Below, piece after piece: positions 1-40,642 of a stretch of DNA of 50,886 nt. The stretch is from a virus. The notes beneath the pieces are model-generated. The model was not told where the DNA came from. It saw only the letters and a list, made by a program, of their open reading frames with translations, and ran no database searches. How positions within the stretch are numbered: position 1 is the stretch's first letter; every line of letters starts with the position of its first letter. A program made the position numbers and the translations under genes. The DNA is taken from IMG/VR virus record IMGVR_UViG_3300028284_000225, positions 1-50,886 of that record. The stretch is one strand, 5' to 3'.

Positions 1-753
1 AGCGAACAGTATAAGACTAACCCCCAAGGATTGACTGAGTTGGTGAATAGGTTCTTATCACCCATGACTGAGATCATCATGGATAATCAAGGAACCATCG
101 ACAAGTATATGGGTGACTGTATCATGTGTTTCTGGAATGCTCCTTTAGACGTAGAGCAACAAGAACGACTTGCGGTCTTGACAAGTGAGCAAATGTATGA
201 TAGACTTGATATACTCAACGCCGAGTTAGAGGAAGAAGGGTTATTGCCAATTAACATTGGTGTAGGAATCAACAGTGGATCTGTTGTTGTAGGAAACATG
301 GGAAGTGATCAGAGGTTTGATTACTCTGTGTTAGGAGATGCTGTTAATCTGGCAGCGAGACTTGAAGGACAAACTAAGGAGTATGGTGTGAAGACTATAT
401 TAGGATACGAGACAGCAAAAGAATTAGAGGATGAATTTGCATTACTCGAACTGGATACTATAGCAGTCAAAGGAAAGACTGAACCCGTAAAGATCTATAC
501 CGTGTTGGGAACACATGAGTGGTGGAACGACAATTCCGCATATGCTAATGAAACCCAACAACATGAGAAGATGATGGGTCTATATTACAATCAACAATTC
601 GATCACGCAATTAGATTCTGCGAAGATCTCAAACCCTGTTTTCTGGGTACTATGACGGACTTCTATACCAAATGGATAGACCGTTGTAATGAAATGAAGG
701 AAGCAGGACTATCAAAAGATTGGGACGGTGTATACCGTGCTACCACCAAATAG
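1..753 (+). CDS. Class III adenylate/guanylate cyclase catalytic domain, 5' end outside window
   Basis: The frame is open from base 1, so the N-terminus lies upstream; 250 codons are visible. It should convert ATP (or GTP) to a cyclic nucleotide. Residue numbers count from the first codon. The segment TIDKYMGD contains Lys35, which aligns with the adenine-selecting lysine of adenylate cyclases, and metal-binding Asp39. NLAAR supplies transition-state residues Asn116 and Arg120. The motif FDYSVLGDAVN and the C-terminal VKGKTEPVKIY are typical of bacterial cyclases. The first metal-binding Asp would lie outside the window. No disabling change is visible. Family is secure; substrate (ATP favoured over GTP) and any upstream sensor domain are not. 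Confidence 0.88.
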   Translation, partial: SEQYKTNPQGLTELVNRFLSPMTEIIMDNQGTIDKYMGDCIMCFWNAPLDVEQQERLAVLTSEQMYDRLDILNAELEEEGLLPINIGVGINSGSVVVGNMGSDQRFDYSVLGDAVNLAARLEGQTKEYGVKTILGYETAKELEDEFALLELDTIAVKGKTEPVKIYTVLGTHEWWNDNSAYANETQQHEKMMGLYYNQQFDHAIRFCEDLKPCFLGTMTDFYTKWIDRCNEMKEAGLSKDWDGVYRATTK

Positions 754-754
754 T

Positions 755-762
755 TATAAATA
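755..762 (+). promoter_or_regulatory. T4-type late promoter octamer TATAAATA
   Basis: An exact TATAAATA starts two bases after the cyclase stop codon. In T4 this octamer is recognised by the phage late sigma factor gp55. The next gene starts at 860, about 90 bases downstream, and also has an early-type promoter, so the late function is inferred from the motif alone. Confidence 0.45.
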
Positions 763-797
763 AAACTACCCTTATAACAAAATAGTCTTAAAAGTAC

Positions 798-826
798 TTG
801 ACAACTTGTTTATATTATGAGATAAT
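798..826 (+). promoter_or_regulatory. Host-type early promoter, class C
   Basis: TTGACA (798-803), 17-bp spacer, GATAAT (821-826). TATTATGAGATAATA forms a 6-bp inverted repeat with a 3-base loop covering the -10. The same -10 block followed by AGTACCCTATT recurs at 8009. It precedes the gene at 860. Confidence 0.75.
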
Positions 827-859
827 AGTACCCTATTTTGATGAAAGAGTAACTGTTTT

Positions 860-1126
860 ATGAGTCTTGCCCCAATGAGTGTTGAAGTCGTTTTAGGTGA
901 GTTTGTCGAGAAGGACTGTGGGAACTACTTCCACTACAGTGAGAATCCCGACAATTATGAATTCTGTAAAGACTTTCCTCATTTAGTATGGGTTGGTGGT
1001 ATCGGTCAACAGTATCGTTATGCCAATGTCAAGAAGACTGTAGCATATATTGCAGTTGATGAAGATGAGTACGGAAATGCCGTAGTCGAAAAGTGGAAGT
1101 TAAAGAAGAACGTTCAATACGTTTAG
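860..1126 (+). CDS. Hypothetical protein, 88 aa
   Basis: No recognised family. A mixed, aromatic-rich soluble protein with no membrane segment. It is the first gene after the class C early promoter, with a purine-rich GAAAGAG leader before the ATG. It begins a run of small genes ending near 3032, which suggests an early accessory function, but no role can be assigned. Confidence 0.75.
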   Translation: MSLAPMSVEVVLGEFVEKDCGNYFHYSENPDNYEFCKDFPHLVWVGGIGQQYRYANVKKTVAYIAVDEDEYGNAVVEKWKLKKNVQYV

Positions 1127-1135
1127 GAGAATCTA

Positions 1136-1294
1136 ATGGATATTTTAATATTTTTACTTCAATCTATACTGGTACTTGGTGCCTCTTTTATGTGTGTGAT
1201 GGGATCCATCTACGCAGCGGAAGAATCAACTCTTCGAAAGAAAAACATGAGAGCAGGTACTCATGATTACTACGGTAATAAACTTGAAAAATAA
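1136..1294 (+). CDS. Small single-pass membrane protein, 52 aa
   Basis: ATG at 1136 follows TAGGAG at 1123-1128 with good spacing. The first 28 residues form a hydrophobic segment ending SIYAA, which could be a signal anchor or a cleavable signal peptide; the remainder is a short charged tail. Function unknown. It lies directly after the 860 gene, probably in the same transcript. Confidence 0.6.
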   Translation: MDILIFLLQSILVLGASFMCVMGSIYAAEESTLRKKNMRAGTHDYYGNKLEK

Positions 1295-1307
1295 TTGCTA
1301 AAAACGC

Positions 1308-1336
1308 TTGACATTTGTTATGAAAACAAGTATAAT
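1308..1336 (+). promoter_or_regulatory. Host-type early promoter, class A
   Basis: TTGACA (1308-1313), 17-bp spacer, TATAAT (1331-1336). The spacer holds the near-palindrome TTGTTATGAAAACAA (1315-1329). It is almost identical to the promoters at 4573, 10318 and 29970 and drives the gene at 1372. Confidence 0.85.
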
Positions 1337-1371
1337 GGTTGTATAAAGTGATTAATGAGAGAGGAATGATT

Positions 1372-1662
1372 ATGACGAAATTTGAAAAAGACCAGTTTAC
1401 TTGGGACGGTATGTACTTGATGTACAGAGGTAAGCACACTAAGAGTGTGAACATGGAGGTCGCAAGACCTAACTGTCACCCATCTTGGCATGGTTTACCA
1501 AAACCAGAGTTTATCGCAAGGTTCAAGTATGGTTACAAACCATGGAAAGCATGGGTCAACTTCCTTGTTAAGAATGTGACGATTGAAGAATACCTCGAAT
1601 TGTCTGAGACAGAACATCCTGTCGGTGCAATGAGAGCATTAGGTTATGGAGGAAAATGCTAA
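1372..1662 (+). CDS. Hypothetical protein, 96 aa
   Basis: The ATG at 1372 is preferred over the upstream TTG at 1339 because GAGAGG lies just before it. The protein is rich in Trp, Tyr, His and Lys, with no membrane segment and no family I recognise. It is first in an operon of five overlapping small genes (1372-3032) behind the class A promoter. Confidence 0.72.
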   Translation: MTKFEKDQFTWDGMYLMYRGKHTKSVNMEVARPNCHPSWHGLPKPEFIARFKYGYKPWKAWVNFLVKNVTIEEYLELSETEHPVGAMRALGYGGKC

Positions 1663-2168
1663 TGAAATATGTAATGCAAACCCAATTCAAAGAAAACTAT
1701 GGTGCCCATGATTGGGATGGCACTGGTGAGTGTCCGCAGTACTGGAAGTTCAAGGGTGGTGAAACATACATCGTTGATGTGTCTATGGCACAGGCACAGT
1801 CCAAGTGCTTCATGGAGCAGTGTGAAGATGCTGTATCCAGTGCGGATGAGTATCAAGAAGAGTATGTTCTTGATGCACAGTTGATAGATGACTGTGAGTT
1901 CGATGTGTCAAACCACATTGAGTCATGGGAGACTCCAACGTATCTCCAACATGTTGGTGAGAACGAGTTCGTGGGATACAAGATCGTTGAGAATGGTACC
2001 ATGGGGTACATGAAGAAAGAGATCGTCAAGCAACAAAGATCTTGGAAGATCATTGATGGTGTGGAATCAGATCATAAGTGTACTTATGAGATGGTCACTG
2101 GACACCAAGTCCTACATGCGGACTTGAAAGAGTGGTTCGAAAAATATACAGAATGTGAGGTAGCATAA
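1662..2168 (+). CDS. Hypothetical acidic protein, 168 aa
   Basis: GGAGG at 1648-1652 is 9 bases from the ATG at 1662 and only 3 from the ATG at 1656, so 1662 is chosen; it overlaps the previous stop (TAATG). The protein is acidic and rich in Trp, Tyr and Cys, beginning MKYVMQTQFKENYGAHDW. The family is not identified. It overlaps the next gene by one base. Confidence 0.75.
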   Translation: MKYVMQTQFKENYGAHDWDGTGECPQYWKFKGGETYIVDVSMAQAQSKCFMEQCEDAVSSADEYQEEYVLDAQLIDDCEFDVSNHIESWETPTYLQHVGENEFVGYKIVENGTMGYMKKEIVKQQRSWKIIDGVESDHKCTYEMVTGHQVLHADLKEWFEKYTECEVA

Positions 2169-3070: not shown

Positions 3071-3111
3071 TAAACGGTATATAAAAAAGTGAAATTAATT
3101 TGCTAAAACGC

Positions 3112-3140
3112 TTGACACTTGTAATGAAATCGAGTATAAT
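3112..3140 (+). promoter_or_regulatory. Host-type early promoter, class A variant
   Basis: TTGACA (3112-3117), 17-bp spacer, TATAAT (3135-3140), with the shared upstream AAAACGC. The spacer palindrome of the other class A sites is largely degenerate here. Drives 3174 and 3397. Confidence 0.85.
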
Positions 3141-3173
3141 TACTACGTAATGATGATTAATGAGAGGTTAAAT

Positions 3174-3956: not shown

Positions 3957-4340
3957 ATGAAACAATTAACAATATTAATCGCAATGGTAATCGGCATATC
4001 AAGTTGTACCAATTTCACCATGCCAAGCAACTACGATCCAAACGAGTCCAAAGGAATGATTGACGTTCTACAGGATGTACGTGCACTGGATTGCCGAACA
4101 GATGCATCACAACAAGCAGGTATCAAAGAGATTCAAGAGTCTGTTGAATGGATGCGACTGTATACGGATATAAAGGGATCTGAGGATGTATTTGTATCCT
4201 TGGGTGCTATCGATCATACCTTAACTGGAATGATTGTTAGGGATAATATGAGTGTTGGATACTGTAAGTTAAAGAAGAAGAACTTAACACTACAGGTATC
4301 TGATACCGCACAAGCAGTAATGAAGAGGTACGGAGAATGA
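3957..4340 (+). CDS. Putative lipoprotein, 127 aa
   Basis: The start is the ATG at 3957 (GAGG upstream), not the in-frame codon at 3888 that lies inside the tRNA. The N-terminus is a lipoprotein signal: Lys, hydrophobic core, lipobox ISSC. The mature protein would be anchored to an envelope membrane after lipidation. The remainder has no recognised domain. A role in host-envelope modification or superinfection exclusion is possible but unproven. Confidence 0.72.
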   Translation: MKQLTILIAMVIGISSCTNFTMPSNYDPNESKGMIDVLQDVRALDCRTDASQQAGIKEIQESVEWMRLYTDIKGSEDVFVSLGAIDHTLTGMIVRDNMSVGYCKLKKKNLTLQVSDTAQAVMKRYGE

Positions 4341-4564
4341 GTATAGCAGAACTATTAGGTCACGAAGATGAGACCCTAAAGAAATATGGTGAGATCCTAC
4401 AGGAACTTGAAACCGAACATAAGGCAGGTAACCTGTCAGATGAAGAAGCAGTTGAGATCCTCGAAGACATGAAGTTGACTGGTGAGTTGATCGAGAACAA
4501 CAATAGTATCGAGAACGCCGCACTGGTTCAGAACGCAATCAACATTTTATTGAAATTAATTTAA
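4337..4564 (+). CDS. Hypothetical acidic helical protein, 75 aa
   Basis: ATGA overlap with the lipoprotein stop and a CGGAG ribosome site. Strongly acidic and probably a helical hairpin (ETLKKYGEILQELETEHK). It resembles small helical proteins of phage accessory regions; no function assigned. Confidence 0.7.
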   Translation: MSIAELLGHEDETLKKYGEILQELETEHKAGNLSDEEAVEILEDMKLTGELIENNNSIENAALVQNAINILLKLI

Positions 4565-4572
4565 GAAAACGC

Positions 4573-4601
4573 TTGACATTTGTATTGAAAACAAGTATAA
4601 T
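4573..4601 (+). promoter_or_regulatory. Host-type early promoter, class A
   Basis: TTGACA (4573-4578), 17-bp spacer containing TTGTATTGAAAACAA (4580-4594), TATAAT (4596-4601). It drives the DUF932 gene. Confidence 0.87.
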
Positions 4602-4636
4602 GGTCATATAAATTTGAAAAAGTGAGGAACTAAATT

Positions 4637-5605
4637 ATGAGTATGAATGATATATTACAAATCGAGACAATGGCATATGCAGGTCAATCCCCTTGGGGTG
4701 ACATCGGTACGCAGGTCTCAAACGATCTATCTCCACAGCAGATTATGGAGAAAGCAGATCTGAACTGGTCAGTCGATAAGGTGAAAACCTATGCCGACTA
4801 TCAAGGTGAGAAGATCCCTACTGGGTTGGAAGCACTTGTCAGATCTTCGGATAACAAGATCTTAACCCAAGTTGGTAAGAACTGGGAACCCTGTCAGAAC
4901 GAGACTGCGTTCGAATTCTTTAACGAGTACTGCCTTGAAGGTGGTATGGATATGGAATCCGCAGGTTCACTGAAAGGTGGCAAAATGGTCTGGGCACTTG
5001 CCAAGATCAAAGAGTCTTTTGATGTGGTCAAGGGTGACCAAGTAGATTCCTACTTGCTCTTCTCTAACCCACACGAGTATGGTAAGTCAATCGATGTTAG
5101 GTTTACACCTATCAGAGTTACTTGCATGAATACTCTGGCAATGGCAATCAAAGGTTCTGCTGTTAACGGTATGAAAGTTAACCACAGAAAAGCATTTGAT
5201 CCACAGATCGTCAAAGAGACTATGGGTATTGCCCACGAGAAGTTCGAGCAATACAAAGAAGTTGCTAAGTTCTTGTCTAAGAAAAGGTTTGATGCTCAGT
5301 CATTGATCCAGTACTACAACGAAGTGTTCCCAAGAACATACAAAGGTAAAGACGAAGTTATTGTCAGTGCCTATGATGATCTGACTACTAACGGTCAAAA
5401 AGCATTTGACGTGTTACAGTCACAACCTGGCGCAAACTTTGCACAGGGATCTTGGTGGCAAGCGCTTAACTCTGTGACTTACTTGACGGATCACGTCATG
5501 GGTAGGGAAGCAGATTCCAGAATGACTTCTTCTTGGTTTGGTGCTAATGCCAACAGGAAAGCAGTTGCGGTATCGAAAGCAATTGAATTTGCCGAGGTTG
5601 CGTAA
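4637..5605 (+). CDS. DUF932 (phage/plasmid-like TIGR03299-type) protein, 322 aa
   Basis: Recognised by the N-terminal SPWGDIGTQV segment, the LNWSVDKVKTY block and the stretch ILTQVGKNWEPCQNETAFEF, followed by a long C-terminal helical half ending in a conserved W. The length is about normal for the family. DUF932 proteins are widespread in phages and plasmids with no settled activity. It has its own strong class A promoter, so it is likely made early and in quantity. Confidence 0.85.
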   Translation: MSMNDILQIETMAYAGQSPWGDIGTQVSNDLSPQQIMEKADLNWSVDKVKTYADYQGEKIPTGLEALVRSSDNKILTQVGKNWEPCQNETAFEFFNEYCLEGGMDMESAGSLKGGKMVWALAKIKESFDVVKGDQVDSYLLFSNPHEYGKSIDVRFTPIRVTCMNTLAMAIKGSAVNGMKVNHRKAFDPQIVKETMGIAHEKFEQYKEVAKFLSKKRFDAQSLIQYYNEVFPRTYKGKDEVIVSAYDDLTTNGQKAFDVLQSQPGANFAQGSWWQALNSVTYLTDHVMGREADSRMTSSWFGANANRKAVAVSKAIEFAEVA

Positions 5606-7960: not shown

Positions 7961-7985
7961 TATAACAAATTGGTCTAAAAAAGTG

Positions 7986-8014
7986 TTGACTTCTTGTTTT
8001 AATTATGAGATAAT
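7986..8014 (+). promoter_or_regulatory. Host-type early promoter, class C
   Basis: TTGACT (7986-7991), 17-bp spacer, GATAAT (8009-8014), with inverted repeat ATTATGAGATAAT across the -10. The block continues AGTACCCTATT as at 827. It drives 8044 and 8268. Confidence 0.75.
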
Positions 8015-8043
8015 AGTACCCTATTGAGATGAGAGAGTAAGTG

Positions 8044-9915: not shown

Positions 9916-10313
9916 TGATGTTACGTATACTTGCATTATTATTGTTATCGAATACCGCACATGCTATACAGGATCTAGATTTAACCATACCAGAACAACC
10001 ACCTGTATATGTAGAACCCGTAAAACTGCTAGACTTAGATAATACGTACAACAAACCTAGTCGTTGCCAGTTGAATCTATTCTGGACACTTAATGCATTA
10101 GATGTGTGGACAACACATCGAGCATTAAAATCATGTCCGAACTGTAAAGAAGTAAACCCATTACTACCAGACAGACCACGTCTTGAGGAACTGATACTTC
10201 TAAAAGCAATTGTCGCTGGTAGCATACATCACTTTGCAAGTGCTGAATATATCACTGTTATGAATGGAACTTTGGTGTACGTAGTTCATAATAATTACCA
10301 ATTAATTAAATAA
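9912..10313 (+). CDS. Secreted or membrane-associated hypothetical protein, 133 aa
   Basis: ATGA overlap with the previous gene. The first 19 residues are a signal peptide (LRILALLLLSNTAHA, probable cut after AHA). The mature part has a CPNC pair and a hydrophobic helix around LLKAIVAGSIHHF. It probably acts in the periplasm or inner membrane. Not recognised. Confidence 0.7.
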   Translation: MMMLRILALLLLSNTAHAIQDLDLTIPEQPPVYVEPVKLLDLDNTYNKPSRCQLNLFWTLNALDVWTTHRALKSCPNCKEVNPLLPDRPRLEELILLKAIVAGSIHHFASAEYITVMNGTLVYVVHNNYQLIK

Positions 10314-10317
10314 ACGC

Positions 10318-10346
10318 TTGACATTTGATATCAAAACAAGTATAAT
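10318..10346 (+). promoter_or_regulatory. Host-type early promoter, class A
   Basis: TTGACA (10318-10323), 17-bp spacer with TTGATATCAAAACAA (10325-10339; also a perfect TTTGATATCAAA), TATAAT (10341-10346). It drives 10373 and the nuclease gene. Confidence 0.87.
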
Positions 10347-10372
10347 GGTTGTATAAAGTGAGGAAATAAATT

Positions 10373-25396: not shown

Positions 25397-27373
25397 ATGA
25401 AAATAGATAAGAAAAAAGATAAGTTATTAGCAGATTATGCAGTTGGAATGTTGAAGGACTTTTATTTGAATGAGAATGAAAGTAGTCCTCAAGAAGCATA
25501 TGCAAGAGCAAGTACAGCATGGAGTACATACAAGGGTGAATTAGATGAAGATCTCGCAGAGAGACTGTATTCGTATGTAAGTAACAAGTGGTTCATGTTC
25601 GCATCCCCTGTTTTATCAAACGCACCAAATGGAACTAAGAAAGGTAAGGGTTTACCTATCTCCTGTTTCCTAACCTACGTACCAGACACCTTAGAAGGTC
25701 TTATATCGCATAGTAGTGAGTTGAGATGGTTGTCTGTGTTTGGTGGTGGTGTTGGTGGTCACTGGAGTGACGTACGTACCGTATCAGACATTGCACCAGG
25801 CCCTATGCCATTCATACACACAGTAGATGCTGATATGATTGCATACCGACAGGGTAAGACTCGTAAAGGATCCTATGCCGCTTATATGGACGTGAGTCAT
25901 CCAGACATCATTGAATTTCTAAACATGCGTATACCTACAGGTGACGTACAACGTAAAGCACTTAACTTACATAATGCTATCAACATTACCGATGAGTTTA
26001 TGAATGCTGTTATGGATAACACTGAATTTGATTTGCGTGATCCCAAAGATCAAGCAGTAAAAGAATCTATCAATGCTCGTAAGTTGTGGGAACGTATTTT
26101 AGAAACAAGATTCCGTACAGGTGAACCATACCTAAACTTCATTGATACTGCAAACAAGTATCTACCAGAACCATTAAAAGATCTTGGTTTAAAGATCAAT
26201 GGTAGTAACTTATGTAATGAAATACACTTACCTACATCCGAAGACAGAACCGCAGTATGTTGTCTTTCGTCTTTAAATTTGGAGTATTATGATGAGTGGA
26301 AAGACACTACTATTGTTCGGGATCTTATCCGCATGTTGGATAACGTCCTCGAATACTTTATTGAAAACGCACCCGACTCAATCGAACGTGCTAAGTTCTC
26401 TGCATACCGAGAGAGGTCTATCGGACTTGGAGCAATGGGATTCCATTCTTTGTTACAACATCATGGGGTCGCATGGGAGTCCGAAACCGCAAGGGAAATT
26501 AACCGTGTTGTGTTCTCCAGAATTAAATCTGAGGCAGTTGCAGAAACTGAGTTGTTGGCAGAAGAACGTGGGTCGTATCCAGACGGAGAGATGTCTGGTC
26601 GAAGAAATTCCCACCTTCTTGCTATCGCCCCGAATGCTTCGTCTGGTGTAATACTATCAACCAGTCCATCCATTGAACCATTAAAGGCAAATGCATATAC
26701 ACATCGTACACGTGCAGGATCCTTCTTGGTTAAGAACAAGTATCTGACAAGATTGCTTGATGCAAAGGGTGAAAACAATGAGTCCAACTGGTCATCAATT
26801 ATTACAAATAAAGGTAGTGTTCAACACCTTCCGTTCCTTACAGAAGGTGAAAAAAGTATATATAAAACAGCACAGGAATTAGATCAGAACTGGGTAGTAC
26901 AACACGCAGGGGATCGACAACCTTTTATCTGTCAAGGACAGAGTGTAAATATTTTCTTCCCCGCAGGTGCAGATAAGTCTTATGTGAATAGGGTACATAT
27001 CAAAGCATGGAGTGAAGGTCTCAAGGGTTTATATTATCTACGCACAGAAGCAAAGTCTCGTGCGGAAAACGTCTCAGAAAAAGTAGAACGTGTTGCACTC
27101 CAAGAGGATACACGAAGCATCGTGTACTCCAAAAAGAATTGCCCGTTCTGTTCCATGGCAATGGAAGAACTGAAGTTGAGAGGAATACCATACGATAAGA
27201 TAGATCTTGCAGACATTGGTAAAACCGCTGCCGAAGTGACAGGAAGAAAAGTAAAAACCGTCCCTCAAATATACATTGGTGGTAAGTATATTGGTGGATA
27301 CGAAGAACTAATGAAGCATCTCGAAACACCATTCGAAGATGAGTCAGAAGAATGCAGAGCATGTGAAGGATAA
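25397..27373 (+). CDS. nrdA: Class I ribonucleotide reductase large subunit with glutaredoxin insert, 658 aa
   Basis: It reduces ribonucleoside diphosphates to deoxy forms for phage DNA synthesis. No N-terminal ATP-cone is seen. The active site includes PISCFLTY, AVCCLSSL and GSNLCNEI (N271, C273, E275), which fit the redox and thiyl-radical residues. Residues about 574-640 are a complete glutaredoxin (CPFC 582-585; TVPQIYIGGKYIGG). The reducing-tail cysteines CRAC (653-656) come after it. So the glutaredoxin sits between barrel and tail. Partner NrdB follows at once. Confidence 0.93.
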   Translation: MKIDKKKDKLLADYAVGMLKDFYLNENESSPQEAYARASTAWSTYKGELDEDLAERLYSYVSNKWFMFASPVLSNAPNGTKKGKGLPISCFLTYVPDTLEGLISHSSELRWLSVFGGGVGGHWSDVRTVSDIAPGPMPFIHTVDADMIAYRQGKTRKGSYAAYMDVSHPDIIEFLNMRIPTGDVQRKALNLHNAINITDEFMNAVMDNTEFDLRDPKDQAVKESINARKLWERILETRFRTGEPYLNFIDTANKYLPEPLKDLGLKINGSNLCNEIHLPTSEDRTAVCCLSSLNLEYYDEWKDTTIVRDLIRMLDNVLEYFIENAPDSIERAKFSAYRERSIGLGAMGFHSLLQHHGVAWESETAREINRVVFSRIKSEAVAETELLAEERGSYPDGEMSGRRNSHLLAIAPNASSGVILSTSPSIEPLKANAYTHRTRAGSFLVKNKYLTRLLDAKGENNESNWSSIITNKGSVQHLPFLTEGEKSIYKTAQELDQNWVVQHAGDRQPFICQGQSVNIFFPAGADKSYVNRVHIKAWSEGLKGLYYLRTEAKSRAENVSEKVERVALQEDTRSIVYSKKNCPFCSMAMEELKLRGIPYDKIDLADIGKTAAEVTGRKVKTVPQIYIGGKYIGGYEELMKHLETPFEDESEECRACEG

Positions 27374-36504: not shown

Positions 36505-36551
36505 GATAAGAATCCCATATATACTTACATAACTATTATGTGAGGTATACT

Positions 36552-37910
36552 ATGAGATATGTTGGAGTTAGTGAGAATTATCACGATGCCGCCTTATCAG
36601 TTATCGAAGATGGAGTGGTGACCTTTGCGTCTCACTCCGAACGATACTCTAAAAAGAAAAACGACAAAATAATTCATCCGTCCTTGTGGGAAGCAAGTTG
36701 CAAAGATCTACCATCTTTTGATAGGGATCATATGCACATGGCATTCTACGAGCATTCGGATGATCCTAAGTACGACTCAACCTTTAACCATCATAAGTCG
36801 CATTGTGCGACTGCATTCTACACACGTCCATGGGATGATCGTGACACAACAGTCATGGTCTCTATTGATGGTGTAGGTGAAAAACAATCTGCTGTTATTC
36901 TTGACAGCAACTTCAATCTAATCAAAGAATACCTCGCACCAAAATCAGTTGGATTAGTCTACACAACATGTACGGTTCAATTGGGTTTACGTCCACTTGA
37001 GGATGAATATGTTGTTATGGGTCTAAGTTCATACGGCACTGCCGTACCCGATATTGTAGACTGGTTAACTCAGTGGTGGGAAGCAGAGGGTGCAAACTCC
37101 GACATGAAGAACATGATGCAGTCGTGGGTAGAGCAATACGATGATGCAGATGTTGCGTCATCTGTTCAAGCATTTGCACAATACGGTATTATGCAGATTA
37201 TGCATGAAGCACGTAAGCACGGATCCAAACTTGTATATGGTGGTGGGTGTGCTCAGAACGTGGTTATCAATACTCTTCTATGGGACGTATTCGATGACGT
37301 ACACATCTCTATATCACCAACAGACGCAGGATCGTCTCTGGGGTGCGCTGGGTACGCACAGGAGGTCGCTACAGGCATTGATAAACTTATCTGGACTCCT
37401 TATAGGGGGTATGACATACAGAAGAAAATTAATCCATCCGAAGTAGTAGATCACTTGTTATCAAAAAAAGTATGTGGTATTGCCAATGGTAAAGCAGAGT
37501 TCGGCCCTCGTGCATTGGGTAATAGATCTCTGATTGCAGATGTAAGGTATGATGTAAAGGACACAGTCAACACAATTAAGCAGAGACAGAAGTACAGACC
37601 GTTTGCTCCTGCAATCCTCGAAGAGTTTGTTGACGAATACTTTGAGGGTGTGACTAATGAATACATGCAGTTCACATGTAAAGCAAAGCATGATTACTCA
37701 TCCGTAACACACGTAGACGGGACTGCCCGTGTACAGGTAGTAAAGAAAGACTGTGAGTCAGTATTCCGTAAAGTGATAGAAGAGTACTATGAGAAGACAG
37801 GTGTTCCTATGCTACTTAATACTTCACTAAATATTCGAGGTAGACCAATGGTTAATGATCATCATGATGCACATCTGTGGGAACAGAAATATGGGGTAAA
37901 GGTATTCTAA
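36552..37910 (+). CDS. Carbamoyltransferase, NodU/CmcH/TobZ type, 452 aa
   Basis: ATG at 36552 (GAGG upstream) rather than GTG 36540. The N-terminal ASKHA-like domain begins MRYVGVSENYHDAALS with NHHKSHCATAFY; the C-terminal part has AEFGPRALGNRS and RPFAPAILEEF, the family signature. Such enzymes put a carbamoyl group from carbamoyl phosphate on a hydroxyl of a sugar or antibiotic via a carbamoyl-adenylate. Target likely a phage or host glycan. TAATG-coupled to the oxygenase. Confidence 0.85.
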   Translation: MRYVGVSENYHDAALSVIEDGVVTFASHSERYSKKKNDKIIHPSLWEASCKDLPSFDRDHMHMAFYEHSDDPKYDSTFNHHKSHCATAFYTRPWDDRDTTVMVSIDGVGEKQSAVILDSNFNLIKEYLAPKSVGLVYTTCTVQLGLRPLEDEYVVMGLSSYGTAVPDIVDWLTQWWEAEGANSDMKNMMQSWVEQYDDADVASSVQAFAQYGIMQIMHEARKHGSKLVYGGGCAQNVVINTLLWDVFDDVHISISPTDAGSSLGCAGYAQEVATGIDKLIWTPYRGYDIQKKINPSEVVDHLLSKKVCGIANGKAEFGPRALGNRSLIADVRYDVKDTVNTIKQRQKYRPFAPAILEEFVDEYFEGVTNEYMQFTCKAKHDYSSVTHVDGTARVQVVKKDCESVFRKVIEEYYEKTGVPMLLNTSLNIRGRPMVNDHHDAHLWEQKYGVKVF

Positions 37911-38797: not shown

Positions 38798-39675
38798 TGG
38801 AACCAGAACTCATTACTTGGCGTGGTACGCCGGGAGTCGGTGATTTTATGTGGGCACTTAACTCTGCCCACAATTTCTGTTGGGCAGAAAAAACTACTGC
38901 CATCTTGGAAATGCACTGGGAACATGGTGAGGATTACATACATCATCCAGATGAGGAAGAGACCATTATAGAACGAATGGCATTCATACATAATTTCTAT
39001 CACAGGAAAGATGATGTGGAGGTGGTTCACGTCTTCAATGCCGACAGTAGGTACAAACACTGGAAGTATGCAGACGATATCATTAAAGACGAAGATGGTA
39101 ATGCAAGACAAGTAGCAAAGAATTCGCATGGAGAAAAGGCAAGGTTCTATTTCGATAGTGGTAAGTATTCAGATGAGATAGGTGGAAAGATACCAGACAA
39201 CAACTGGGTGTTCCGTGATGACATTGTTCATCCTCGTAAGCAAAACAAGATAGTTATCTGGAGACCAACCTTCAATGCAGAAATACCAAGAACTTGGAAA
39301 AGAGGGTTGACAAATAACGAATGGGATGATATAATAAGTATGTTGCGTGGGCAGGGATTCAATGTAGTTGAACTCACCTATAGAACACCAGTATCAGAAG
39401 CATTCTATGAGATATCTACATGTAGATTAGTATTATGTTATGATGGTATGTGGCATTATATAGCAAGAAACTTTAGTATACCTATGATAGTTATAAGTAA
39501 AGATGGAGTAACTAAGTATCACACACCACACGCAATAACGGCATCTGGTCTAAAAGAAGATAATTATAACATTTGGTGGTACCTAAAAGACATAGGAGAG
39601 TTTCTGGGAATACCACGAAAATACGCAATAGAACATAAACATCGGAGTAAGAAATATTATGAAGTCAGAGATTAA
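38797..39675 (+). CDS. GT9-like glycosyltransferase (heptosyltransferase-type), 292 aa
   Basis: Overlaps the previous gene by one base. ITWRGTPGVGDFMWAL resembles the N-terminal PGxGDF of GT9/GT-B. The late strand VLCYDGMWHYIARNFSIPM stands for the donor-binding DxxxxHxA region. It probably moves a nucleotide sugar. No active-site confirmation by eye. Overlaps the radical SAM gene by 17 bases. Confidence 0.6.
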   Translation: MEPELITWRGTPGVGDFMWALNSAHNFCWAEKTTAILEMHWEHGEDYIHHPDEEETIIERMAFIHNFYHRKDDVEVVHVFNADSRYKHWKYADDIIKDEDGNARQVAKNSHGEKARFYFDSGKYSDEIGGKIPDNNWVFRDDIVHPRKQNKIVIWRPTFNAEIPRTWKRGLTNNEWDDIISMLRGQGFNVVELTYRTPVSEAFYEISTCRLVLCYDGMWHYIARNFSIPMIVISKDGVTKYHTPHAITASGLKEDNYNIWWYLKDIGEFLGIPRKYAIEHKHRSKKYYEVRD

Positions 39676-40642
39676 AATTGACAGAGCAGTCATAGAGATA
39701 CAGGGTGCCTGTAATTTCGATTGTACTATGTGTCCGCAAGACAAAAGGACTGGAGGAAGACATAAGGGTTTCCTTCGTAAGATGAATTTACTCGAATTCG
39801 AAGATAACGTTGCCGACTGTAAACAGCATGGAATGAATGTAGTGAATCTGGATGGATCTGGAGAAGCAACATTAAATAACAACCTACCAGAATACATTAA
39901 GATCGTTAAGAAGTATGATGCAATGTCAGTTATCTTCTCTAATGGTTTCCGTATGCATGGTCAATACATGAAAGATTGTGTTGATGCAGGATTAGACTTC
40001 TTTAGGTTCTCGTTCATTGGCCCTACACCAGAACTGTATGATAAGTGGATGAACAACAAACGTGGATCTTCTTATCACCTAATTAAGAAACACGTAAAAG
40101 AGATGATGGATTACGTTAAAGAAACAGGATCGAATTGTGTTGTAGAAACATACCACCTTATTACAGACAACGATAATCTTGAGCAAGAACTGGAGCAGTA
40201 CAAAGCATTAGTAGACGAACTGGGTTGTAAGACCGAGATCTGGAAGATGCATAACTGGTCTGGTGCGTATGACATTGGAGAGACAAATGCACGTAAGGGT
40301 GAGACCAAATCATGTGGTAGACCTTTCTCTCCAGACGTAGTAATACGTGCAGGTGGATTAGACGGCAAACATGGTGCAGTCCATCCGTGTTGTCAAGTAC
40401 TTGGTAGAGATGAAGAAGCAGTACTTGGTCACACATCCGAGAACACTATCGAAGAAATCATTAGGGGTGAGGAGTACTCTGCATTGAGACAATCACATAG
40501 GGATAAGACCTATACAGATTATTGCAGAGATTGTGATTTTTTACTTGACGCACCCGAAACTTTAGTGTATACTAATAACAATCGTGCAGAACAAAAAATG
40601 CTCGGCACGTCATTCTCATTGGAGGATTACAGAGATGTATAA
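39659..40642 (+). CDS. Radical SAM enzyme with SPASM-like C-terminus, 327 aa
   Basis: GACNFDCTMC (C18, C22, C25) is the CxxxCxxC site for the [4Fe-4S] cluster and SAM cleavage; DGSGEAT is the GGE-like SAM-binding motif. The C-terminal half has CGRPF, HPCCQ and CRDC, cysteines for auxiliary clusters as in SPASM enzymes. It probably modifies a peptide, sugar or other substrate by radical chemistry. The IscU/IscA-like proteins could supply clusters. Target unknown. Confidence 0.82.
   Translation: MKSEIKIDRAVIEIQGACNFDCTMCPQDKRTGGRHKGFLRKMNLLEFEDNVADCKQHGMNVVNLDGSGEATLNNNLPEYIKIVKKYDAMSVIFSNGFRMHGQYMKDCVDAGLDFFRFSFIGPTPELYDKWMNNKRGSSYHLIKKHVKEMMDYVKETGSNCVVETYHLITDNDNLEQELEQYKALVDELGCKTEIWKMHNWSGAYDIGETNARKGETKSCGRPFSPDVVIRAGGLDGKHGAVHPCCQVLGRDEEAVLGHTSENTIEEIIRGEEYSALRQSHRDKTYTDYCRDCDFLLDAPETLVYTNNNRAEQKMLGTSFSLEDYRDV
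40545..40573 (+). promoter_or_regulatory. Possible internal early-type promoter
   Basis: TTGACG (40545-40550), 17 bp, TATACT (40568-40573), inside the last part of the radical SAM gene and ahead of 40635. Lacks the conserved flanks of the other early promoters. Confidence 0.35.

Follow-up and report, generated by a model that had tools for sequence, protein, structure and literature searches.

What may a phage do with a nucleotide cyclase? The question is raised by the left border of the present window, by which we mean the whole stretch of DNA analysed. The window is an entire IMG/VR record (50,886 bases), and the cyclase gene is therefore cut by the record end. An earlier note on this DNA proposed that a class III cyclase raises the cAMP or cGMP level of the host, changing its metabolism or interfering with signalling-based defence. 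The cyclase, the genuine phage contig and a sensor upstream all stood up to the present analysis, while the proposed stand-alone, cAMP-raising gene of metabolism or defence was not supported. We consider it fairly probable that the window holds the catalytic half of a phage receptor adenylate cyclase, which belongs to a curli module and would use cAMP to signal the envelope or curli state late in infection.

Catalytic and sensory parts of the cyclase

Frame +1 is open from window base 1 to the stop codon at 751-753, with 250 codons and zero internal stops. This 3' part of a CHASE2 adenylate cyclase gene (1-753, plus strand) was identified from the open reading frame, from Pfam and phrog matches and from the full-length counterparts in the loci L002, L003 and L004. 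The window protein matched the Pfam family Guanylate_cyc (PF00211) with an E value of 1.4e-13 (51.3 bits against a cut-off of 21.9) and phrog_35576 with 3.6e-68. Because the phrog match covers only model positions 444-680 of 681, about 440 residues of the cyclase lie off the contig. In L002, L003 and L004, which are 97-98% identical to the window protein over 250 residues, a single frame runs on upstream unbroken. L004 aligns with window positions 1-1664 at 93%, and L002 and L003 align with positions 4-1301 and 4-1286, respectively, both at 94%. A chimera or host contamination, the first of which had been a concern of the earlier note, is thus ruled out, since these three loci join the cyclase to the downstream DNA of the window. 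The region downstream of the cyclase is variable among near-identical phages; extra small genes present in L003 (11285-12335) are absent from the corresponding part of the window (1286-1662).

For the comparison of active sites, a total of 82 cyclase loci were used, in which the IMG/VR relatives are the best 80 of 521 (a scan of IMG/VR for the window cyclase gave 524 pattern matches, of which 521 were relatives). The assignment to class III was borne out by the PF00211 and phrog_35576 matches and by an intact active site, and Lys35, Asp39, Asn116 and Arg120 were all found where they had been reported. Their positions were set by alignment to CyaB and CyaC, with Ser109 as the partner of Lys35. 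The stretch from Lys35 to Asp39 lies in the motif DKYMGD (103-117, plus strand), and Ser109, Asn116 and Arg120 lie in S-VLGDAV-N-LAA-R (325-360, plus strand; from the alignments). We take Lys35 to be the base-selecting Lys, with Ser109 as the second base-selection residue, Asp39 to be the second metal Asp, and Asn116 and Arg120 to be the transition-state pair. In L003 numbering, K475 and D479, the counterparts of Lys35 and Asp39, were each kept in 82/82 loci, R560 in 82/82 and N556 in 81/82. The first metal Asp, the lack of which would have told against the enzyme, is off the window contig, yet its counterpart (D433 in L003) was present in 81/81 relatives reaching that position, L047 being cut before it. 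Position 549 was T in 54 loci, S in 27 and D in one. The phage Melnitz is the sole exception at both positions 549 (Asp) and 556 (N556S).

A Lys paired with Asp, Thr or Ser selects adenine, while Glu selects guanine; Lys with Thr or Ser is presumably the adenylate pair of the class containing CyaB and CyaC. The Thr of both CyaB and CyaC aligned with position 549, and the Glu of the guanylyl cyclase Cya2 (2w01) aligned with the query Lys. A guanylate cyclase is less likely, with Lys at the base-selection position in 82/82 loci. From the Lys-Ser/Thr pair, the window enzyme is probably a class III cyclase of the adenylate rather than the guanylate type, making cAMP; of the two products previously considered, cAMP is thus retained and cGMP disfavoured.

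The earlier suggestion of a sensor domain upstream was confirmed in the near-identical L003 protein (690 amino acid residues), in which CHASE2 (1.6e-27) was detected at residues 21-325 and the cyclase domain (2.2e-17) at residues 427-608. The hydropathy scan of this protein supported membrane helices at 305-356 and 360-379, while its N-terminal helix stayed below the threshold. The combination of CHASE2 and membrane helices that marks a CHASE2 receptor cyclase was thus found in L003, the window itself being cut. An AlphaFold2 model of the L003 protein was built from 34 relatives (63 full-length cyclases gave 35 after dereplication, and 34 were aligned after the shorter L027 was left out), with a mean pLDDT of 86.9 and a pTM of 0.64. 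Long helices of the model were at 12-28, 310-332, 335-360 and 367-399. The predicted architecture consists of an N-terminal helix, CHASE2, a hydrophobic helix bundle, the class III catalytic domain and a helical tail. In a Foldseek search against PDB, the matches of the model were the catalytic domains of Cya2, CyaB and CyaC. CyaB of P. aeruginosa (3r5g) and CyaC of S. platensis (1wc1) are alike in catalytic fold and active-site residues (Lys and Thr), but have other regulatory parts, with no CHASE2 in the matched stretch of 3r5g or 1wc1.

The C-terminal extension of the window protein (571-750, plus strand) ends with WDGVYRATTK and is helical in the L003 model. The cyclase C-terminus was SK or TK in 80/82 relatives, the exceptions being L007, at a contig end, and the cyclase of phage HTVC008M (10696-12531 of L083), which is without the extension. 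At the sequence level the cyclase is under purifying selection, with dN/dS values for the window part of 0.087 against L002, 0.087 against L003 and 0.11 against L004, and a value of 0.12 for the full gene between L003 and L020. Window residue 43 (127-129) is Cys, either a natural variant or a base error, where 81/82 relatives have Ala and Melnitz has His.

The curli module and its bacterial counterparts

The cyclase gene is the last of a phage curli (type VIII secretion) module, in the order two small proteins, csgF, csgG, curlin, FecR, second curlin and cyclase. In L003, matches were obtained for CsgF (6.5e-17), CsgG (6.5e-52) and FecR (2e-7); the first curlin-repeat protein matched weakly (0.0068; NCBIfam CsgA 1.2e-05), and the second curlin-like protein had no Pfam curlin match. 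The module was counted in 43/82 loci, namely those with at least 5 kb of DNA upstream of the cyclase, including the nearest relatives L003 and L004. FecR and curlin were each present in 43 of these, CsgG and CsgF in 42 each, and the small pair in 39. CsgG of L041 is missing near the cyclase in the fetched DNA but is present elsewhere in its record. Membership of the curli module was thus found in the relatives (42-43/43 loci), the window being cut upstream of the cyclase. Among 48 records, window included, CsgG was detected in 44/48 and FecR in 45/48, the misses being the cut window and two short contigs, with one more for CsgG. The loci were picked for carrying the cyclase, and therefore these counts show that the cyclase implies the curli module, not the reverse. 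In L024, L028, L039, L064, L070 and L072 the module is inverted relative to the cyclase, at a distance of 4 to 9 kb, and in L018 and L019 the same holds for csgFG. Because the association persists in these loci, the module genes stay together through rearrangement.

The same order of module genes was found in two annotated phages, Melnitz and HTVC008M, whose cyclases (QZI95054.1 and AGE60353.1, respectively) showed both CHASE2 and the cyclase domain. Identity to the window part was 39% for Melnitz, which is without the catalytic Asn, and 49% for HTVC008M, which is without the tail. Phage C48C1 gave the top match for two proteins of the window, ribonucleotide reductase (78%) and a DUF6267 protein (68%), and many further window proteins match it; a search of its whole record (bases 1-150,000 and the rest) gave no csgF, csgG, curlin, fecR or cyclase. 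The cyclase and curli genes thus look like an accessory unit by gene content. Two matches titled 'Acinetobacter phage MD-2021a' (H7 and H8) were dropped: the H7 stretch carries iscRSUA, mfd and hupB and resembles host chromosome, and H8 was left out on the same organism and the same match. A record under this title is L084 (CAKLQH020000011.1), which looks like bacterial chromosome in the stretch read.

Curli clusters that include an adenylate cyclase are already known from phages. In the portion of PMC9599517 available to us, a pelagiphage T8SS/curli cluster with FecR and adenylate cyclase was reported in 2022, with the same genes in the same order, and its tree places the cyclase as monophyletic among phages and nearest to Alphaproteobacteria; such a cluster is also in print in PMC7029224 and PMC9004378, as far as their accessible parts go. 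The genes before csgF are labelled histidine kinases in that portion of PMC9599517. At this place L003 has two related small membrane proteins (4193-4471 and 4471-4779; 92 and 102 amino acid residues), both phrog_18771, with one hydrophobic stretch region and no Pfam match at 0.1. By their predicted length, these are too short for a kinase. Added here are the identification of CHASE2, the exchange of sensors and their co-variation with FecR, the late-promoter-like sites and the counts. The words CHASE2 and late promoter are absent from the main text of PMC9599517, and sensor swapping and FecR co-variation were not found in its available portion. None of the CHASE2 domain, the late-promoter-like sites, CHASE2 swapping or the tracking of the sensor by FecR was found in the literature searched. 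Among the matches listed, as seen in part, there was no paper on a phage CHASE2-curli-FecR cyclase beyond PMC9599517 (without CHASE2) and PMC5498481 (Sinorhizobium).

Bacterial CHASE2 adenylate cyclases resemble the phage ones in having a FecR-domain protein nearby, as described for a FecR and CHASE2 cyclase cluster of Campylobacterota in the accessible part of PMC9239204. Among the best 80 bacterial relatives, 51 loci were counted (29 others were left out for having one flank shorter than 3 kb; many Bradyrhizobium are included), and FecR was within 10 kb of the cyclase in 21/51, at about 3.2 kb or less in 11/21 and at 3.7 to 8.1 kb in 10/21. The base rate was 150 FecR in 182.8 Mb of 39 bacterial genomes (39 of 40, L110 missing), or about 0.016 per 20 kb, as detected with the Pfam FecR model, which is not strictly the same detector as the phage-FecR model of the locus count. 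The bacterial loci differ from the phage module in that CsgG was near the cyclase in 0/51. Conversely, 37 bacterial csgF clusters had CsgG in 37/37, but FecR or CHASE2 cyclase in none, within flanks of about 8-10 kb, some of which stop at contig ends. These 37 regions are from one phylum and come from two overlapping samples (3/289 and 35/398 over the cut-off; the weak G261 was left out). The FecR-cyclase and csg halves are apart in the sampled bacteria, and the phage module therefore joins two separate things. In a FastTree phylogeny, a branch with support 100 separates 36 phage cyclases from 76 bacterial ones, in agreement with the PMC9599517 tree as far as it is available. Relatives of the phage CHASE2 cyclases were also observed in two marine SAR86 single-cell genomes (L096 and L119).

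Promoter-like sites, sensor exchange and co-variation with FecR

We take TATAAATA to be the core of a T4-type late promoter. It was found close to the first module gene in 18/49 loci (10/29 after dereplication), against 2/49 on the opposite strand (1/29 dereplicated) and 105/5800 in random windows; the exact TATAAATA was not found before the module in the other 31/49 loci. In the window, the same site lies directly 3' of the cyclase stop (755-762, plus strand), as it also does behind the cyclase in L002-L004. It is followed by a sigma70-like promoter repeat, D2 (773-855, plus strand; second copy at 7961-8043), which separates the cyclase from the genes that follow and marks the border of the unit. 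Altogether two intergenic repeat families with near-consensus TTGACA and TATAAT were detected, at 773-855, 1288-1347, 3092-3151, 4553-4612, 7961-8043 and 10298-10357, and these repeated elements are probably strong early promoters. With late-promoter-like sites before the module and sigma70-like repeats behind the cyclase, the unit looks late and its neighbours early; we infer that the module would be expressed late in infection.

CHASE2 sensors have been swapped onto near-identical catalytic domains among phages. Among 38 dereplicated loci (703 pairs), the catalytic domains were at least 80% identical in 173 pairs, and in 111 of those 173 pairs CHASE2 was at most 45% identical. Two pairs, L054/L065 (with 96% of the catalytic domain in common) and L061/L062, show an abrupt rise of nucleotide identity near residue 380-390, from about 0.43 to about 0.8-0.85; the agreement at fourfold-degenerate sites was 0.53-0.57 for the cyclase versus 0.13-0.31 for CHASE2. 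The cyclase figure for L054/L061, a pair with similar CHASE2, was no higher (0.54), and thus constraint alone is insufficient and exchange explains the pattern. The pair L030/L003 gives no evidence of exchange, because its cyclase figure was 0.30. Similarity falls off once more in the tails, and what has been exchanged is therefore the catalytic domain that sensor and tail enclose.

FecR identity tracked that of CHASE2, with a partial rank correlation of 0.55 given CsgG (0/500 permutations as high), and was not correlated with the catalytic domain given CsgG and CHASE2 (0.00; 241/500 permutations as high). CsgG behaved in the opposite way to FecR, with -0.06 for CHASE2 and 0.40 for the cyclase, given FecR; CsgF with CHASE2, given CsgG, gave 0.19 (2/500 permutations). 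Linkage could account for part of the co-variation, because the distance to FecR is shorter for CHASE2 than for the catalytic domain. The exchanged sensors and co-varying FecR offer a testable partner and a route to finding the signal.

Possible roles of the cyclase

In the proposed mechanism, the module would be transcribed late, CHASE2 would face the periplasm, and CHASE2 together with an exported FecR-domain protein (one hydrophobic stretch at the N-terminus, residues 6-24) would sense the envelope state or the state of curli export. A cytoplasmic cyclase dimer would then convert ATP to cAMP, which may act on a host receptor and adjust surface, aggregation or lysis timing during curli making. 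A host receptor is suggested because a phage-borne one was not found: the cyclic-nucleotide-binding domain PF00027 was detected in 0/48 phage records, ten of them longer than 100 kb, and in neither Melnitz nor HTVC008M. Provided that the enzyme is active, certain abundant marine phages detect some cue at the envelope of an infected cell and pass a signal to its interior. To our knowledge, hardly any transmembrane receptor that is encoded by a phage and coupled to a second messenger has been described.

As a tentative extension, for which we would claim about one chance in four, the phages may share a cAMP-making unit onto which CHASE2 sensors and matching FecR partners are recombined, so that each phage would read a different envelope or environmental cue late in infection and signal to the host by cAMP for curli display or lysis preparation. 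If this is true, a phage transmembrane second-messenger receptor evolves like a swappable recognition part. Exchanged sensors and FecR co-variation would help to explain phage curli genes, a point left open in the accessible parts of PMC7029224, PMC9004378 and PMC9599517.

Among the alternatives, a general auxiliary metabolic gene is unlikely. Host cAMP would here be raised and carbon and energy metabolism redirected through a CRP-type regulator, the curli genes being mere neighbours. The kept active-site residues agree with this, as does the lack of a receptor domain in the 50 phage records, by which the output should act on the host. However, the tight association with csgG and fecR, a sensor domain in place of a constitutive enzyme, and the late-promoter-like sites all argue against it, and CRP-like sites were not enriched in the window (38 versus 44.4 expected).

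We regard it as quite improbable that the cyclase is a passenger that linkage keeps in the curli module and that itself does little or nothing. The loss of the catalytic Asn in Melnitz and of the tail in HTVC008M would fit such a passenger, but dN/dS is 0.09-0.12, the active site is otherwise kept in 81/82 loci, the cyclase is still near the module after rearrangement, and catalytic domains have been exchanged between phages.

A role in lysis timing, in which cAMP or the state of the receptor tells the phage when to lyse, together with the curli pore, is doubtful, at odds of the order we would give to a long shot. The late-promoter-like sites are in its favour, and a role of CsgGF in the lysis of Melnitz was proposed in PMC9004378; in the part of that paper at hand, however, the argument rested on the absence of curlin, whereas the Melnitz record annotates two curlin-repeat proteins.

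Very improbable is an anti-defence or Pycsar-like role, in which the cyclase would imitate or upset cyclic-nucleotide immunity, such as that directed at superinfecting phages: P0001 matched the PycC models of PADLOC (best 4.6e-23), but these are class III cyclase models, the general cyclase family of Pfam matches too, none of nine other proteins scanned gave a PADLOC defence partner or effector (two of the nine being FecR and the L003 cyclase, itself PycC-matching), and the 48 + 2 records lack PF00027. We know of no Pycsar system with a membrane CHASE2 architecture or a curli context. The curli-module context, the late-promoter-like sites and the negative PF00027 and PADLOC searches together speak against the stand-alone role in metabolism or defence signalling that had been envisaged for this gene, and we retain the late, module-bound receptor cyclase as the preferred reading.

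Other genes of the window are also of note. The ribonucleotide reductase large subunit (25397-27373) carries a C-terminal glutaredoxin domain at residues 576-632. A Nol-like carbamoyltransferase (36540-37910) and a radical SAM/SPASM protein (39659-40642) are encoded further downstream, and these two genes possibly serve the modification of the surface or of small molecules.
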